Shown here: positions 32,401-38,348 of the stretch, piece by piece | How the letters are laid out: every line of letters starts with the position of its first letter | Numbering within the stretch: position 1 is the first letter of the stretch | From: Streptomyces sp. NBC_01478 | Lineage (GTDB): Bacteria > Actinomycetota > Actinomycetes > Streptomycetales > Streptomycetaceae | DNA: 64,000 nucleotides | Assembly: GCF_036227225.1 (NCBI RefSeq) | Contig: NZ_CP109444.1 | Coordinates: 3,515,501-3,579,500, forward strand | Direction of reading: 5' to 3' | Program-made: the position numbers and the translations under genes | Notes under the pieces: model-generated | Database searches by the model: none | Seen by the model: the letters and a program-made list of their open reading frames with translations, nothing else | Told to the model about the DNA's origin: nothing

Positions 32401-34865
32401 TGCTCGATCCACACCTCACCGGTCTTGGTGACATCGATCGAACGGTCGGCGGCGACATCCTTGTTGCCGTCCTTGTCGATCACCAGGAAGCTGACGTTCG
32501 AGGCGCCCGGCTTCAACTTGACGTAGGCGAAGGCCCCGTAGGCATCCCGCCCGATGAACGGGTGACTGGCCGGCCAGGTCGTGGCCTCGCCGTCGGCGAG
32601 GTCGCCCCAGGCGTACAGGCCCCAGTTGTCGTAGTCGCCGTCGGTGCGCTTGTAGTGGACGATCGCGTAGTCGCGGGAGGAGGCTGTGGGGATCTCCTCG
32701 GCCGGCGGGGTGCCGGAGGCGGAGGCGGCTGTCGCGCTCGCCGTGCGCCCGCCGGAATCGACCACAACTGCCTTGTACCGCAGGGCGGTTCCGGGCGCCA
32801 CATCCTTGCCGATGGTCTGCGTGACCTTGTACGGGGCGTGGTCGGCGGAACCCAGCGTCCGCCACGTGCCGTTGCCGGTCTGGGCGGCGAAGACGACCCG
32901 GTTGAGCTGGCCGCCGGTGACGTCGGCGCTCAGTTCGACGGTGCCGGTGGCTCCCGCGTCCGGGGCCTTGAGGGTGATGGTGGGCTTGGTGACGGGCTTG
33001 GCAAGGGTGCCGTTCGCCTTGAGGACGATGGCGGAACCGGCCGGGACGGTGACGGTGACCTTGTTGTCGGCGCCGCTCGTCGCGGTGACCGAAGTCCCGT
33101 AGATCCCCCGGTACTTCATGTCCGGCGAACCGGTCGCGAAGGTCACGGTCTTGGCGGTGTCGGCGTTGTTGAGGGCGACGACGTACTCGGCGGCGCCACT
33201 GGTCCGCGTGAAGGCGTAGACACCGGCGCCGTCGGCCGCGTAGCGCTCGGTCTGCACTCCGTCGGTCAGTGCCGGGTTGTCCTCGCGCAGCTTGGAGAGG
33301 GCGGCAATCTCCTTGTACAGCGGGGCAGTTGGGTCGTAGGCGTCACTGGCCGCCGTGCGATCGGTGCCGATCTCGTCGTCGTCGAGATAGTCGGCGACCT
33401 TCGAGGCGAACATCGTCTGGCGGGCGTCCTTGTCGCCGCCGGAGCCGGTGAAGCCCTGTTCGTCGCCGTAGTAGACGACGGGGTTGCCGCGGCTGAGGAA
33501 CATCAGCTCGTTGGCGAGCCTGTCCTTGGCGAGGAGTTGGGCGTCGGTGGCCTTCGGGTTGTCCTGGTCGAGGAAGTAGCCGATGCGGCCCATGTCGTGG
33601 TTGCCGAGGAAGGTGACCTGCTCGTACGCGTTCGCCTTGTCGGTCGTGTACTTGTAGTCGTCGCCGAAGACACTCGCCAACTTCTGCGCGCTGCCGCCCT
33701 GGGAGGCGTAGGAGCGGGCCGCGTCCTGGAAGGGGAAGTCGAGCGTGGCGTCCAGCCGGCCCTGGGTGACGTACGGCGAAGTGACGGACGTGTCGGCGGA
33801 GTAGACCTCACCGAACATGAAGAAGTTCCTACGGCCGTGCGCGGCGGCGTACTTGTCGAGGGCTGTCGCCCACTGGGTCCAGAAGTCCATGTCGACGTGC
33901 TTGACGGTGTCGATGCGGAAGCCGTCGACGTCGAAGTCGCGCACCCACTTCTCGTAGATCTTCTCCATGCCGCTGACGACCTCGGGGCGTTCGGTCCACA
34001 GGTCGTCGAGACCGGAGAAGTCGCCGTAGGTGGCGTTCTCGCCGACGTAGGTCGACTTGCCCCGATTGTGGTACATCGTTGGGTCGTTGAGCCAGGACGG
34101 GACCTTGGCGTCCGTCTTGTCGGCGGGGACGGTCGGGGTCTTCGGGAAGGAGGAGGTGGAGACGGAGGGGAAGGCGTGGGAGCCGTCCGCGTAGTCGGCG
34201 TCGTCGAAGGGCCGGCCGTCCTTGGTGAGGTAGGGGAAGGCGCCCTTGGAGAGGTAGTCGTAGGACTTGCCCTCGTAGTCGACGACGTCGGCGGTGTGGT
34301 TGGTGATGACGTCGAAAAAGACCTTCATGCCCTTGGCGTGGGCCTTGGAGATGAGGGTCGCGAGATCCTTGTTGGTGCCGAAGTGCGGGTCGACCTGGGT
34401 GAAGTCCGTTATCCAGTAACCGTGGTAGCCGGCGGAGGCGTCGCTCCCCGTCCCCTGCACGGGCTGGTTCTTGAAGATCGGGGCCATCCAGATGGCGGTG
34501 GTGCCAAGGCCCTTGATGTAGTCGAGCTTCTTTGCCAGGCCCTTGAGGTCGCCACCCTGATAGAAGCCCTTGTCGGTGGGGTCGTAGCCGGTGCTGAGGC
34601 GTGAACCGGTCAGCCCGCCCTGGTCGTTGGCGGTGTCGCCGTTGGCGAACCGGTCCGGCATCACGAAGTAGAACTGCTCGCGGGTGTCGTCGTGCCGCGC
34701 GGGCGTGGCGGCCAGTCGCGCGTCGGACGGGGGTGCGGGCGGGATCGCGGCGTGGGCGGCGAGGGGTTGGACGAACGCCGCGAGGAGTGCGGCGACGAGG
34801 ACGCCCGTGGCCCTTCTCCGTCGCTCGGTGCGGCGCGTGCGGGGCGCCGGCCATCTCGGTATCAC
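29460..34865 (-). CDS. Secreted bifunctional alpha-amylase/pullulanase (amylopullulanase)
   Basis: A 1801-residue secreted enzyme that breaks alpha-1,4 and alpha-1,6 bonds of starch and pullulan. After a signal peptide (about 1-43, ending AAHAA) comes a first GH13 amylase unit at about 55-480 with GFRIDTVKHVD (nucleophile near 317), MFGEVYS and FLGNHDMGR. Two CBM41-like modules follow at about 735-830 (VHYKRTDGDYDNWGLYAWG) and 845-940 (VHYHRADGDYTGWGLHVW). Then come pullulanase N2 and CBM48-type domains and a second GH13 with DGFRFDLMGH (near 1405), IMYGEGWNFG and VDAHDNESLFD. The GTG at 34865 follows AAGGAG. Both catalytic units look intact. A MalR-type motif lies upstream. Confidence 0.95.
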   Translation of the reverse strand: MIPRWPAPRTRRTERRRRATGVLVAALLAAFVQPLAAHAAIPPAPPSDARLAATPARHDDTREQFYFVMPDRFANGDTANDQGGLTGSRLSTGYDPTDKGFYQGGDLKGLAKKLDYIKGLGTTAIWMAPIFKNQPVQGTGSDASAGYHGYWITDFTQVDPHFGTNKDLATLISKAHAKGMKVFFDVITNHTADVVDYEGKSYDYLSKGAFPYLTKDGRPFDDADYADGSHAFPSVSTSSFPKTPTVPADKTDAKVPSWLNDPTMYHNRGKSTYVGENATYGDFSGLDDLWTERPEVVSGMEKIYEKWVRDFDVDGFRIDTVKHVDMDFWTQWATALDKYAAAHGRRNFFMFGEVYSADTSVTSPYVTQGRLDATLDFPFQDAARSYASQGGSAQKLASVFGDDYKYTTDKANAYEQVTFLGNHDMGRIGYFLDQDNPKATDAQLLAKDRLANELMFLSRGNPVVYYGDEQGFTGSGGDKDARQTMFASKVADYLDDDEIGTDRTAASDAYDPTAPLYKEIAALSKLREDNPALTDGVQTERYAADGAGVYAFTRTSGAAEYVVALNNADTAKTVTFATGSPDMKYRGIYGTSVTATSGADNKVTVTVPAGSAIVLKANGTLAKPVTKPTITLKAPDAGATGTVELSADVTGGQLNRVVFAAQTGNGTWRTLGSADHAPYKVTQTIGKDVAPGTALRYKAVVVDSGGRTASATAASASGTPPAEEIPTASSRDYAIVHYKRTDGDYDNWGLYAWGDLADGEATTWPASHPFIGRDAYGAFAYVKLKPGASNVSFLVIDKDGNKDVAADRSIDVTKTGEVWIEQGKEAVQTERPSYPAQDTTKAVVHYHRADGDYTGWGLHVWTGAASPTDWSSPLQPVKTDAYGAVFEVPLDSGATSLSYILHKGDEKDLSADQSLDLKSNGYEVWLLNGQEKYLLPQPAGSAAALDLSTSKAVWIDRNTVAWNGSDAAASTQLLYSHDGSIAVKDGTLTSDDERWLRLSRTTLTDAQKAKFPYLKDYTAWSVDPRDRARVKEALTGQLVASQRAVNGAVLAATGVQIAGVLDDVYGAATKADLGPTFHNGRPTLAVWAPTAQNVSLDLDGSLKKMSRDATTGVWSVTGPASWTDKPYRYVVKVWAPTVQKLVTNEVTDPYSVALTTDSKQSLVVDLDAKSLAPSGWSSLKKPKAVPLKDAEIQELHIRDFSVADKTVPAKDQGTYLAFTDKNSDGSRHLRELAKSGTSYVHLLPAFDIATIPEKKTEQSTTDCDLASYAADSEKQQECVAAVAAKDAYNWGYDPYHFTVPEGSYATDPDGTGRTVEFRKMVKSLNEDGLRVVMDVVYNHTAASGQADYSVLDKIVPGYYQRLLADGSVATSTCCANTATENAMMGKLVVDSVVTWAKEYKVDGFRFDLMGHQPKANILAVRKALDALTLAKDGADGKKIIMYGEGWNFGEVADDARFVQATQQNMAGTGIATFSDRARDAVRGGSPFDADPGVQGFASGLYTDPNSSTANGTSAEQKARLLHYQDLIKVGLSGNLAAYRFTDTDGKDVTGAEIDYNGAPAGYADTPGDALAYVDAHDNESLFDALTYKLPAGTSAADRARMQVLAMATATLSQGPSLSQAGTDLLRSKSLDRNSFDSGDWFNAIHWNCADGNGFGQGLPMAADNASKWPYAKGLLTSVEVGCGQIEGTSAAYQDLLRIRTTEPVFSLGTAGQVQAKLSFPLSGADETPGVITMELGDLVVVFNATPSTQEQRVGSLAGTGYRLHPVQAAGADATVKAASYAKGTGTFAVPARTVAVFTRTP

Positions 34866-34930
34866 AGGCGTGAACTCCTTGCGATTACGGCTCAGTTCGG
34901 GTCCGACCCCGGCGAGACCGTATCGCCGAC

Positions 34931-34949
34931 GCAAGGGTTGCAGCAAGAG
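34931..34949 (-). promoter_or_regulatory. Candidate MalR operator of the amylopullulanase gene
   Basis: On the minus strand CTCTTGCTGCAACCCTTGC contains the 10-mer CTTGCTGCAA, identical to the one between malE and malR at 43811. It is 66 bases upstream of the GTG. Confidence 0.5.
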
Positions 34950-35004
34950 TCCTGAAAGGGGGAGAAAGAACTTTCATCGGCACTCTTGGCGGTCGCCCCG
35001 CGGA

Positions 35005-35021
35005 AAGGGTGCAGCACCCTT
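35005..35021. promoter_or_regulatory. Perfect 17-base palindrome in the 342-base gene-free gap 34866-35207
   Basis: AAGGGTGCAGCACCCTT has perfect 8-base arms. The gap otherwise holds the MalR-like site and a TTGACGTAGATACGG stretch; no gene is supported. The palindrome may be an operator for the amylopullulanase gene, 140 bases away, or a short stem. Confidence 0.4.
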
Positions 35022-35207
35022 GGCTGTTCCCTACCGGAACGGTCTGGAACCGATCACTCCGAGAGCCCTCCTACAGCCGTACCTGTTGCACATCGCGGAA
35101 CACGGACCCGGGCCATCCACCCTTGCCGACGAGTAGCCGGCTGTGCGGGAGGGTCTGCGCACCCGGGCCGAGGCAAAAGCCACCCAGTTGACGTAGATAC
35201 GGATGCC

Positions 35208-36044
35208 TCAGCGAAAGAGGCCGACGTTCTCCGCAACCCACTCCTCAAACGACCTGGCCGGGGACCCCGTGACCCGTGGAACCGTGTCACGTACCGCCAG
35301 CAGTTCCTCATTGACGTCTCCGCCCGTGACATCGAGCACCGCGTCCGCGGCCTCGGCGCCGAAGACCGCGGCCATCTGGGCGTGAGCCTGCTGGCGGCTG
35401 ATCTCCGCGAAGGGCACCTCCCGCCCGAGTGCTGTCGCGATGGCCTCGACCTGCTGCCGGGGAGTCACCGGTCGCGGACCGGTCAGGGCGTACGTCCGAC
35501 CCTGGTGCCCTGGCTCGGTCAGTGCCGCTCGTGCCACCGATGCGATGTCCGCGGGGTGGATCGTGGGCAGACCGGTGTCCGCGTACGGCGCGCGGACCGG
35601 CTGGCCGGCGCGGATCGGTGCCGCCCACATCGTGGCGTTCGAGGCGAACTGGGTCGGCCGCAGGATCGTCCAGGCCATGCCGCTGTCCTTGAGGAGCCGT
35701 TCGACCGCCAGGTTCTCGGCGGCGGCGCCCAGGTGCGGGTGGGTCTGTGCCGTGATGGACGACACCAGCACCACGTGCTCCACACCCGCCAGTCGGGCGG
35801 CCGTGAGGATGTCGGCATCCGGGCCGAGACGCGAGACGAGGAACAGCGAACTCGCCCCGTCCAGAGCGGACTTCAGCGACTCCGGCTCCTCGAAGTCGCC
35901 CTCGACGGCCTCTACTCCTTCGGGAAACTCGGCCGCCCGTGCCGCATCGCGGGTGAAGCCTCGCAGCGGCCCCGCACCGCATCCGTGCAACTCCCTCAGC
36001 AGGGCGCTTCCTATGTTTCCGGTGGCGCCTGTCACGAGGATCAT
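35208..36044 (-). CDS. NAD(P)H-binding NmrA/QOR2-like protein, probable SoxR target
   Basis: A 278-residue protein of the atypical short-chain dehydrogenase (NmrA/NAD(P)H-quinone-reductase-like) family. The dinucleotide motif is ILVTGATGNIGSALLRELHG at residue 2; HVVLVSSITA and ILRPTQFASN follow, and the active-site YxxxK is absent, as in NmrA-like proteins. AGGAGAACGCGCTC precedes the ATG. The promoter has a 19-base spacer and a SoxR-like dyad. From memory, one S. coelicolor SoxR target is annotated as an NAD-dependent epimerase/dehydratase, the same broad family. Response to redox-active compounds is inferred. Confidence 0.87.
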   Translation of the reverse strand: MILVTGATGNIGSALLRELHGCGAGPLRGFTRDAARAAEFPEGVEAVEGDFEEPESLKSALDGASSLFLVSRLGPDADILTAARLAGVEHVVLVSSITAQTHPHLGAAAENLAVERLLKDSGMAWTILRPTQFASNATMWAAPIRAGQPVRAPYADTGLPTIHPADIASVARAALTEPGHQGRTYALTGPRPVTPRQQVEAIATALGREVPFAEISRQQAHAQMAAVFGAEAADAVLDVTGGDVNEELLAVRDTVPRVTGSPARSFEEWVAENVGLFR

Positions 36045-36082
36045 GAGCGCGTTCTCCTGCCGTCGGTGATCAACTCGACGAC

Positions 36083-36113
36083 ACGCTAGAAGCTCAATCG
36101 CGCTTCAGGTCAA
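36083..36113 (-). promoter_or_regulatory. SoxR-like (MerR-type) promoter with 19-base spacer
   Basis: On the minus strand TTGACC and TAGCGT are separated by 19 bases, the elongated spacing of MerR-family promoters. The spacer dyad ACCTGAAG-CGCG-ATTGAGCT matches the SoxR dyad ACCTCAAG-N4-CTTGAGGT at 13 of 16 arm positions. Transcription would begin near 36076, about 30 bases before the ATG at 36044. Confidence 0.7.
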
Positions 36114-36282
36114 GGCGAGTCCGGGCCCTCGCCGCACGCCCTGCGAACTCCCGCGAACTCCCGCCGGCTTCCGCGAACAAAACCGCCGTACCGCGCATCG
36201 GACCTTGTGTACGGCACCAGAGAACGGCGCGGGGCGCACGCAGCGGCCCGCACCGCGGAGCAGGAGTGGGAGCACCAACACC

Positions 36283-36909
36283 GTGAACGAAGACCTGAAC
36301 ACCACCGGTCGGAACGGCACCCCCGACCAGCCCGGCAACGCCAGGCCCCGGCACCGCGCCGACCGACGCTTCGGGCGTACGGTGGTCGGTCTGGCCGCCG
36401 TCGCCGGGCTGGGCCTCGCGGCCTGGGCGAGCACCGCCAACGCCGCGACCTCCACCACCACGAGCACCGCGAAGGCCACGCCGACCTGCTCCGCCGCCGC
36501 ACTCAAGGCCACGTTCGGCCGCCAGCTCGCGGGCGGAATGAACCACCAGGGCGTCGTCGTCACCCTGCGCAACCTCAGCGGCAAGACCTGCGCGCTGCGC
36601 GGCTACCCGGGCCTGGGGCTGGAGAACTCCGCCCACAAGAAGCTCACGACCCACACCACCTGGGGCAACACCTGGTACGCGCACAACCCCGGCAAGAAGA
36701 CCCTCACCCTCAAGGACGGCCAGAGCGCCGAGGCCGTCATCGCCTGGACCCACGCCAACACCGGTACATCGGGCGCGGTCCACGCCTCTTTCCTGGAGAT
36801 CACCCCGCCCGGCTCCACCCAGCACAAGACGCTGGCCTTCCCCCAGTGGGTCGACCACGGCGACCTCTCCGTGACCGCGCTGGCAAGGCACATCACCGTC
36901 ACCTCCTGA
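36283..36909 (+). CDS. Secreted DUF4232 protein
   Basis: A 208-residue exported protein. A long basic N terminus precedes the signal core at about 31-48 (VVGLAAVAGLGLAAWA), cleavage near ANA-AT. The mature part has a Thr/Ser linker and one DUF4232 domain (TCSAAALKATFGRQLAGG, VTLRNLSGKTCALRGYPGLG, LTLKDGQSAEAVIAWTH, HASFLEITPPGS, VTALARHITV), a beta-sandwich common in actinobacterial secreted proteins and of unknown role. The GTG at 36283 is preceded by CAGGAGTGGGAG. Divergent from the SoxR-type promoter. Confidence 0.85.
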   Translation: MNEDLNTTGRNGTPDQPGNARPRHRADRRFGRTVVGLAAVAGLGLAAWASTANAATSTTTSTAKATPTCSAAALKATFGRQLAGGMNHQGVVVTLRNLSGKTCALRGYPGLGLENSAHKKLTTHTTWGNTWYAHNPGKKTLTLKDGQSAEAVIAWTHANTGTSGAVHASFLEITPPGSTQHKTLAFPQWVDHGDLSVTALARHITVTS

Positions 36910-36922
36910 TCCCCCACGGGCC

Positions 36923-36960
36923 GGACGGCGGCGGCGTGCCCCCTCGCGCCGCCGCCGTCC
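36923..36960. terminator. Bidirectional terminator
   Basis: GGACGGCGGCGGCG and CGCCGCCGCCGTCC form a perfect 14-bp stem with a 10-base loop between convergent DUF4232 and alpha-amylase genes. Confidence 0.88.
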
Positions 36961-36971
36961 AACACCGTGGA

Positions 36972-38348
36972 TCAGCAGGACGTCTTGCCCGCGTAGATCG
37001 CCAGTGCCGTGTTGGAGCCCAGGGTGGCCGTGAACTGCCCGCTGGAGTTCACCGTCACCGTCGTGTTGTTCTGGACGTTGCAGTACGTGCCCGCGGCCAG
37101 CGACGTCTGGTACGTCTGGGTCAGCGAGTACGACTCGTGATTGATCGCCACGTAGCCCTTGCTGCCGCGGCCGAAGGCGATCGCGTCGTTGCCGTCGTCC
37201 CACCAGTTGGTGAGGGACTGGCCGCTCGTGGTGTTGCGGAAGGCGACCATGGCCTTGATCTCCGGCCAGGCGTGCTGGCACTTCCAGCCGTCCTGCCAAC
37301 AGGCCGTCACCGAGCCGCCGTTGGGCGGGCCGGCGTCCGTGTCGGACCATTCGTAGCCGGAGTTGATGTCGGGGGCGCCGTAGGGATAGGCGAGCATGAA
37401 GACGTTGGCCAGGGTGTAGTTGGCGCCGTCCTTGTAGTTCAACGTCGAGCCGTTGCGCTCGGTGTCGTGGTTGTCGACGAAGACTCCCGCCACCGAGCTG
37501 CTCATGTAGCCCCAGCCCTCGCCGTAGTTCTTCAGGTAGGCGAGGTTCTCGTTGTTGAAGACCCGCTTGAGGTCGTAGGCGTAGCGGAACTCCTGGACGT
37601 CGCCGTTGCCGGTGTACTCGGTGGGCTGGACGGCCTCGCCGGAGCCGTAGATGACCTCCTGCTTCCAGTACACGGAGGGGTTGCTCAGGCGGGACTTGAT
37701 GTTCGCGAGGTCGGTCGCCGGTATGTGCTTGGCCGCGTCGATGCGGAAGCCGTCGGCGCCGTAGCCGAGGAGGGTGTTCATGTAGCCGGCGATGGTGGAC
37801 CTGACGTACTCCTCGCCCGTGTCCAGGTCGGCCAGGCCGACCAGTTCGCAGTTCTGGACGTTGGCGCGGTTCGTGTAGTCGCTGATCGTGGACGTGCAGT
37901 CGTCCATGTCGTACGAGGAGTACAGGCCGGGGTAGTTGTACTTCGTGTACGACGAACCACCCGTGCCGGTGCCGCTGCCCGCCGACATGTGGTTGACGAC
38001 CGTGTCGACGACGACCTTCACGCCCGCCGCGTGGCAGGTGCTGATCATGTTCTGGAAGGCCGTCGCGTCGCCGAGCCGGCCCGCGATCTTGTAACTCACC
38101 GGCTGGTACGACGTCCACCACTGCGAGCCCTGTATGTGCTCGGCGGGCGGGGAGACCTGGACGTAGCCGTAACCGGCCGGGCCGAGGGTGTTGGTGCACT
38201 CCTTGGCGACCGAGGCGAAGTTCCACTCGAAGAGGACGGCGGTGACGTCCTTGGTGCCGGGTGGGGAGGCATGTGCGGTGCCGGGCACCAGGAGGGCCGT
38301 CGCGGCGGCGAGGGCGAAGGCTCCTGCAAGCGATCTGCTGTTGGCCAT
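36972..38348 (-). CDS. aml: Secreted alpha-amylase (GH13, animal-type)
   Basis: A 458-residue extracellular enzyme that cuts internal alpha-1,4 bonds of starch. The signal peptide is about residues 1-27 (cleavage after TAHA). Motifs in order are [23 protein letters not shown] with the nucleophile near residue 203, [15 protein letters not shown] with the acid Glu near 231, and [12 protein letters not shown] with Asp near 293, followed by a C-terminal beta domain ending AIYAGKTSC. This is the animal-like subfamily usual in Streptomyces; no starch-binding module is present. AAGGAAC precedes the ATG, and a MalR-like motif is about 30 bases upstream. Confidence 0.95.

Follow-up and report, generated by a model that had tools for sequence, protein, structure and literature searches.

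A putative SoxR-type promoter upstream of an NmrA-like gene in Streptomyces sp. NBC_01478

Introduction

In promoters controlled by SoxR and related MerR-type regulators, the -35 and -10 elements stand 19 bp apart, a spacing too wide for unaided RNA polymerase, and SoxR with an oxidised [2Fe-2S] cluster occupies the dyad and switches on transcription by distorting this spacer. Here, we describe a complete 31-bp promoter element of this type in a 64,000-nucleotide stretch of Streptomyces sp. NBC_01478 (contig NZ_CP109444.1, positions 3,515,501 to 3,579,500; hereafter the window), located in front of a gene for an NmrA-like NAD(P)H-binding protein. An original prediction, made from the letters of the window, had proposed a SoxR-type promoter that would place this NmrA/QOR2-like protein in the SoxR regulon, and this core claim is well supported by comparison among genomes. 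It is probable, judging from the sequences compared, that the element is a SoxR operator-promoter which activates the NmrA-like gene, and that this gene adds a further class to the SoxR regulon of Streptomyces.

According to PMC4146615, the SoxR regulon of Streptomyces coelicolor comprises redox enzymes, an antibiotic monooxygenase and an ABC transporter, and a transketolase is noted for S. avermitilis; no NmrA-like target is among the six S. coelicolor regulon genes given there. As well, a search of an open-licence literature library found no NmrA-like SoxR target in print, and the best-studied antibiotic-sensing regulon of Streptomyces would gain a conserved gene class. In the RsrR-NmrA pair of S. 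venezuelae (PMC5015018), an NmrA-type gene is likewise controlled by a regulator that senses redox state through a [2Fe-2S] cluster. However, RsrR belongs to the Rrf2 family, recognizes an 11-3-11 repeat and represses, whereas MerR-type activation is proposed here.

Results and Discussion

The promoter element and its conservation

Read directly on the minus strand from 36113 to 36083, the element is TTGACCTGAAGCGCGATTGAGCTTCTAGCGT, and the hexamers TTGACC and TAGCGT stand 19 nt apart, just as had been predicted. The dyad ACCTGAAG-CGCG-ATTGAGCT is centred in this spacer, which is the geometry of a soxbox; against the ideal SoxR dyad, which we take to be ACCTCAAG-N4-CTTGAGGT, it scores 13 of 16 arm positions, and the count given earlier is correct in this respect. 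The start codon at 36044 lies 38 nt past the -10 element, with an AGGAG motif within these 38 bases. A sigma-70-type scan and a terminator scan of positions 34800 to 37000 yielded no match, and since the former allowed only spacers of 16-18 bp, it is uninformative on a 19-bp promoter.

Conservation of the element was assessed upstream of orthologues with at least 60% identity, after repeats and too-short upstreams had been removed. The box (at most three mismatches) is kept in 82 of 85 distinct upstreams, contrary to the loss of the dyad that would have spoken against the prediction. The mean column information is 1.49 bits in the box, compared with 0.26 over the preceding 45 nt and 0.63 over the following 36 nt. 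Among 65 tallied boxes, no variation is seen at positions 1-4 (TTGA), 10 (A), 17 (T), 26 (T) or 31 (T), while position 9 is A in 63, position 18 is T in 56 and position 19 is G in 64. In the first scan, 45 loci were retrieved, of which 38 (L056-L093) align over at least 273 residues with 63-85% identity, and the box is present in 37 of these 38, L076 being the exception. Homologues below 50% identity lack the box in all six distinct upstreams, and so do seven homologues from the NBC_01478 genome itself (the best five with 38-44% identity), where the best matches have 8-11 mismatches in all seven checked. The NmrA-like gene was matched in 57 of 295 Streptomyces genomes (1e-60), two of these matches being only 48% identical; about a fifth of the sampled Streptomyces genomes carry it.

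The element was further scored by pattern and matrix. At up to three mismatches, the relaxed consensus TTGACCTSAASNNNNNTTSAGSTNNNANNNT, whose relaxation was partly fitted to this site, matched nine positions over both strands of the 12.1-Mb genome, including the NmrA site, and the reversed-pattern control matched none. With two mismatches to the stricter pattern used across the genus (at most one mismatch), the NmrA site is unlisted there. The matrix was built from 107 boxes of five other target classes, the NmrA site being excluded; 102 boxes came from other genomes, picked by pattern with at most one mismatch, and five from this genome. By this matrix, the NmrA site reaches 33.6 bits and is the sole position of the window above 0 bits. 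The 65 orthologue boxes span 25.7 to 48.0 bits.

A constitutive promoter, or a chance dyad with no regulator at all, would be an alternative, given that the support for SoxR is comparative; it is, nevertheless, extremely improbable. The spacer of 19 bp, the retention of the dyad among orthologues behind a poorly conserved preceding stretch, and a random control (one strand, 12 Mb, first-order Markov) that peaks at 8.9 bits and nowhere reaches 10 all argue against it. On this comparison, the conserved box is not due to chance.

SoxR and its target classes

A single SoxR of this genome scores above the curated cut-off (240 bits) and has CIGCGCLSLATC near the C terminus; its [2Fe-2S] cysteines were identified by the spacing CX2CXCX5C, which we take to be that of SoxR. 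Five further boxes of this genome, with zero or one mismatch, lie before genes for an FMN reductase, a zinc-type quinone reductase, a transketolase N-terminal protein, an antibiotic biosynthesis monooxygenase and an ABC transporter. The remaining matches are the own box of a MerR gene (two mismatches), an aldo/keto reductase-like open reading frame (ORF; three) and the ABC box on the reverse strand (three); the ABC transporter and aldo/keto reductase names are our own reading of the sequences. Box type, target classes and the presence of SoxR are thus in common with the S. coelicolor regulon (PMC4146615, in excerpt), the classes being compared by protein type and not by SCO orthology. The NmrA class differs in its leader, which in most cases measures about 37-42 nt, and the box described here is weaker, with asymmetric arms.

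Across the genus, the pattern with at most one mismatch has matches in 40 of 41 genomes, and its reversed control has none. Classes were assigned for 143 of the 145 listed sites outside this genome, in 34 genomes; the two omitted are an NmrA-class site that also appears as L124 and one on a duplicate contig. Quinone reductase (26), ABC transporter (25), FMN reductase (20), transketolase (19) and monooxygenase (12) genes are the most frequent among these 143 listed sites, followed by MarR-like (10), NTF2/EcaC (6), methyltransferase (5) and NmrA (4) genes, four pairs and eight singletons. SoxR itself was found in 73 of 74 genomes searched (1e-30), including all 39 that are NmrA-positive. One genome of 5.5 Mb (G008) has no SoxR at 1e-30 and a single box.

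Several observations weigh against the assignment to SoxR. Because SoxR is near-universal in the genus sample, its co-occurrence with the NmrA-like gene is weak evidence. The orthologue loci L076 and L098 (similarity at L098 begins only at residue 23) lack the box, and at L292, from another genus, the box has four mismatches and lies at 39 nt. One genome (G037) has SoxR yet no box at one mismatch or fewer. Moreover, the NmrA box is degenerate: it matches the operators of the other targets at just under the lowest training site (33.6 against 34.4 bits, the training set being selected by the strict pattern), which makes it a weak member of the set. The box of the unrelated MerR gene in this genome reaches 30.5 bits and the methyltransferase class 34.1-35.6 bits by the same matrix.

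Alternatively, another MerR-family regulator, rather than SoxR, might use the promoter. The genome holds 33 MerR-domain matches, and one MerR gene (L045/L006) has its own box with a 19-bp spacer, TTGACCTGGAGCGCGCTCCAGGTTCTACGGT; the left half-site of the NmrA box is one base off both box types. In addition, a MerR gene other than hspR occurs near the NmrA gene at two orthologue loci (L283 and L287). However, the orthologue boxes mostly have A, T and G at positions 9, 18 and 19, where the L045-type box has G, C and C, and this MerR type is found in 2 of 39 NmrA-positive genomes, compared with 39 of 39 for SoxR. In a MerR profile search that recovered 38 of 38 own MerR loci as a control, 92 of 97 orthologue loci have no MerR-domain ORF, and the others carry hspR in three cases and two unlike MerR genes, each seen once. 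Another MerR regulator is, therefore, unlikely, while SoxR is the best candidate, considering the box type shared with the SoxR-target classes, its presence in all 39 NmrA-positive genomes and the rarity of the rival.

As for the MerR genes themselves, those near NmrA orthologues are of different types (L283, 2562-3257, minus strand; L287, 3334-3831, plus strand). The MerR gene of L045 (G000:C1:2630948-2630978) stands behind a perfect dyad with a 19-bp spacer, CCTGGAG-CGCG-CTCCAGG, and a search of 54 other genomes gave a homologue in 1 of them. A scan for MerR boxes around MerR genes found none at soxR itself. HspR, encoded upstream of the NmrA gene in L069, L080 and L082 and 92-95% identical to the homologue in this genome, was rejected as the regulator, since it occurs at no more than 3 of 97 loci; both its name and its dnaK setting are our reading of the sequences.

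The NmrA-like protein and its possible role

The predicted protein matches the Pfam families NAD_binding_10 (84.5 bits) and NmrA (PF05368, 57.9 bits against a cut-off of 27). By comparison of its predicted model with known folds, the closest proteins are SimC7 (PDB 5L3Z), an angucyclinone ketoreductase, and SwaQ2 (PDB 8R2J), solved with NADP+ and doxorubicin; both share the extended short-chain dehydrogenase/reductase (SDR) fold, and full-length similarity amounts to 40-44% identity. No paper on SwaQ2 was found in the open-licence library. The active-site Ser and Asn of SimC7 are kept, but the His of its I/LxxxH motif is replaced by Asn. This Asn111 is present in 230 of 234 sequences, residue 107 is Pro in 148 and Ala in 73, and His102, near Asn111 in sequence, is invariant. 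E. coli QOR2 (YtfG) and triphenylmethane reductase have the same fold at 22-27% identity and presumably a comparable role, the NADPH-dependent reduction of conjugated substrates; unlike the protein described here, they retain LxxxH (PMC5039031, in excerpt).

By analogy with these proteins, the NmrA-like protein probably belongs to the SimC7/SwaQ2/QOR2 group of NAD(P)H-dependent reductases and acts on quinone-like aromatic metabolites, and its likely role would be that of a SoxR-induced reductase of redox-active aromatic metabolites. Alternatively, it may be a sensor or regulator responding to NAD(P)+/NAD(P)H, comparable to fungal NmrA and the NmrA-type protein under RsrR in S. venezuelae, and not an enzyme. 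The Pfam NmrA match, the replacement of the cofactor-positioning His of SimC7 by Asn, and the S. venezuelae precedent, where a redox-sensing [2Fe-2S] regulator controls an nmrA gene (PMC5015018), are consistent with this possibility, which we regard as somewhat unlikely. The reductase reading can be extended, tentatively, to a SoxR-inducible class of aromatic-polyketide or quinone reductases in which the SimC7 His is dispensable (Asn111 in its place, His102 as a candidate substitute) and the box and gene form a mobile unit with changing genomic sites.

Under the mechanism proposed, whose first two steps correspond to what is established for SoxR, a redox-active metabolite would oxidise SoxR, SoxR on the dyad would correct the geometry of the 19-bp spacer, and transcription of the NmrA-like gene would begin a few bases past 36083. 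The enzyme might then reduce the inducing compound or a relative of it. If the reductase acts on quinone-like metabolites, the compounds which oxidise SoxR would induce the enzyme that modifies them; SoxR binding, induction, substrate and catalysis are what we infer here. SoxR would thereby be tied to a protein whose closest relatives of known structure act on an angucyclinone as a reductase or bind an anthracycline drug, and SoxR-induced modification of redox-active antibiotics becomes a testable idea.

Relation to EcaC (SCO1178)

SCO1178 (ecaC) has been labelled an NAD-dependent epimerase/dehydratase (PMC4146615 and other papers, in excerpt), and a SoxR target of this description had been cited in support of the prediction. 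If the NmrA-like gene were the orthologue of ecaC, it would already be a listed target, and this label is what favours such a reading. The primers published for SCO1178 quantitative PCR (PMC5826349, in excerpt) encode KVRQVY and TKQEDG, and both primer sequences together were located, without mismatch, in 2 of 392 Streptomyces genomes (L280 and L281; locus base 1501), inside an ORF for a 143-aa NTF2-like protein which matches Pfam DUF4440 and has a soxbox with one mismatch. This protein is 66-85% identical to all six members of the boxed NTF2/EcaC class, one of which (L133) matches TIGR02246 (SgcJ/EcaC), and does not match the NmrA-like protein significantly. In L281, we read the convergent ORF as GntR-type, as described for SCO1177; such an ORF is less evident in L280. 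Moreover, the NmrA-like gene is unmatched at 1e-60 in both primer-bearing, S. coelicolor-like genomes.

SCO1178/EcaC thus appears, from its primers, to be an NTF2-like protein of the SgcJ/EcaC family, driven by a soxbox like the NmrA-like gene but of a different family. The orthology was rejected on this evidence, and we give it practically no chance. This precedent, therefore, falls away, the EcaC label is corrected, and the NmrA-like gene would form a separate, further regulon class. Work on S. coelicolor would miss this class if the species lacks the gene, as the two primer-matched genomes suggest.

Gene neighbourhood and coordinates

The features of the locus are collected in Table 1. In the window, the NmrA unit is situated between the DUF4232 and pullulanase genes, and it seems to have been inserted there. 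None of the pullulanase, DUF4232, amylase and glucosidase genes has a match (1e-25) in 104 orthologue-bearing loci with flanks of 0 to 5 kb. Conversely, none of 29 amylase loci in other genomes has the NmrA gene within its 1.5-kb flanks, whereas 18 of them have a pullulanase within 1.5 kb after the amylase; L319 has the order amylase-DUF4232-pullulanase, with no NmrA match seen. The starch setting, therefore, looks incidental, and the link to a starch-degradation cluster or regulon that had been suggested was rejected on the neighbours at both sets of loci.

Table 1. Coordinates of the features in the window.
Feature	Position	Strand	Basis
Complete SoxR-type promoter/operator (soxbox), 31 bp	36083..36113	-	Pattern, matrix, orthologue conservation
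-35 element TTGACC	36108..36113	-	TTGA kept in 65/65 boxed orthologue upstreams
Left dyad arm ACCTGAAG	36103..36110	-	Overlaps -35; box position 8 is G in 40/65, C in 24/65
Right dyad arm ATTGAGCT	36091..36098	-	TTGAG well conserved, each base in 56 to 65 of the 65 boxes; variation at box positions 16 and 22
-10 element TAGCGT	36083..36088	-	T at box position 26 in 65/65, A at 27 in 64/65
Likely ribosome-binding site AGGAG	36054..36058	-	Letters read; role presumed
NmrA-like/extended-SDR NAD(P)H-binding protein, 278 aa	35208..36044	-	ORF; Pfam NAD_binding_10 and NmrA; predicted fold
DUF4232 protein, divergent neighbour	36283..36909	+	ORF, Pfam; start codon presumed; context only
Pullulanase/amylase-type ORF, 1828 codons	29460-34946		ORF flanking the NmrA unit

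Other genes with soxbox-type promoters

In other Streptomyces genomes, soxbox-type promoters were also observed before a MarR/winged-helix-like regulator class with weak family matches (10 of the 143 listed sites, e.g., L144, L156 and L164). A UbiE-like methyltransferase class (L188, L197, L218, L238 and L244) has the right arm CTTGAAG in its box, which may be used by SoxR or by a different MerR regulator. As well, at L040, L042 and L044, and also at L069, L080 and L082, just about 7 nt separate the -10 element of the boxed gene from its ATG, a distance that suggests leaderless transcripts.
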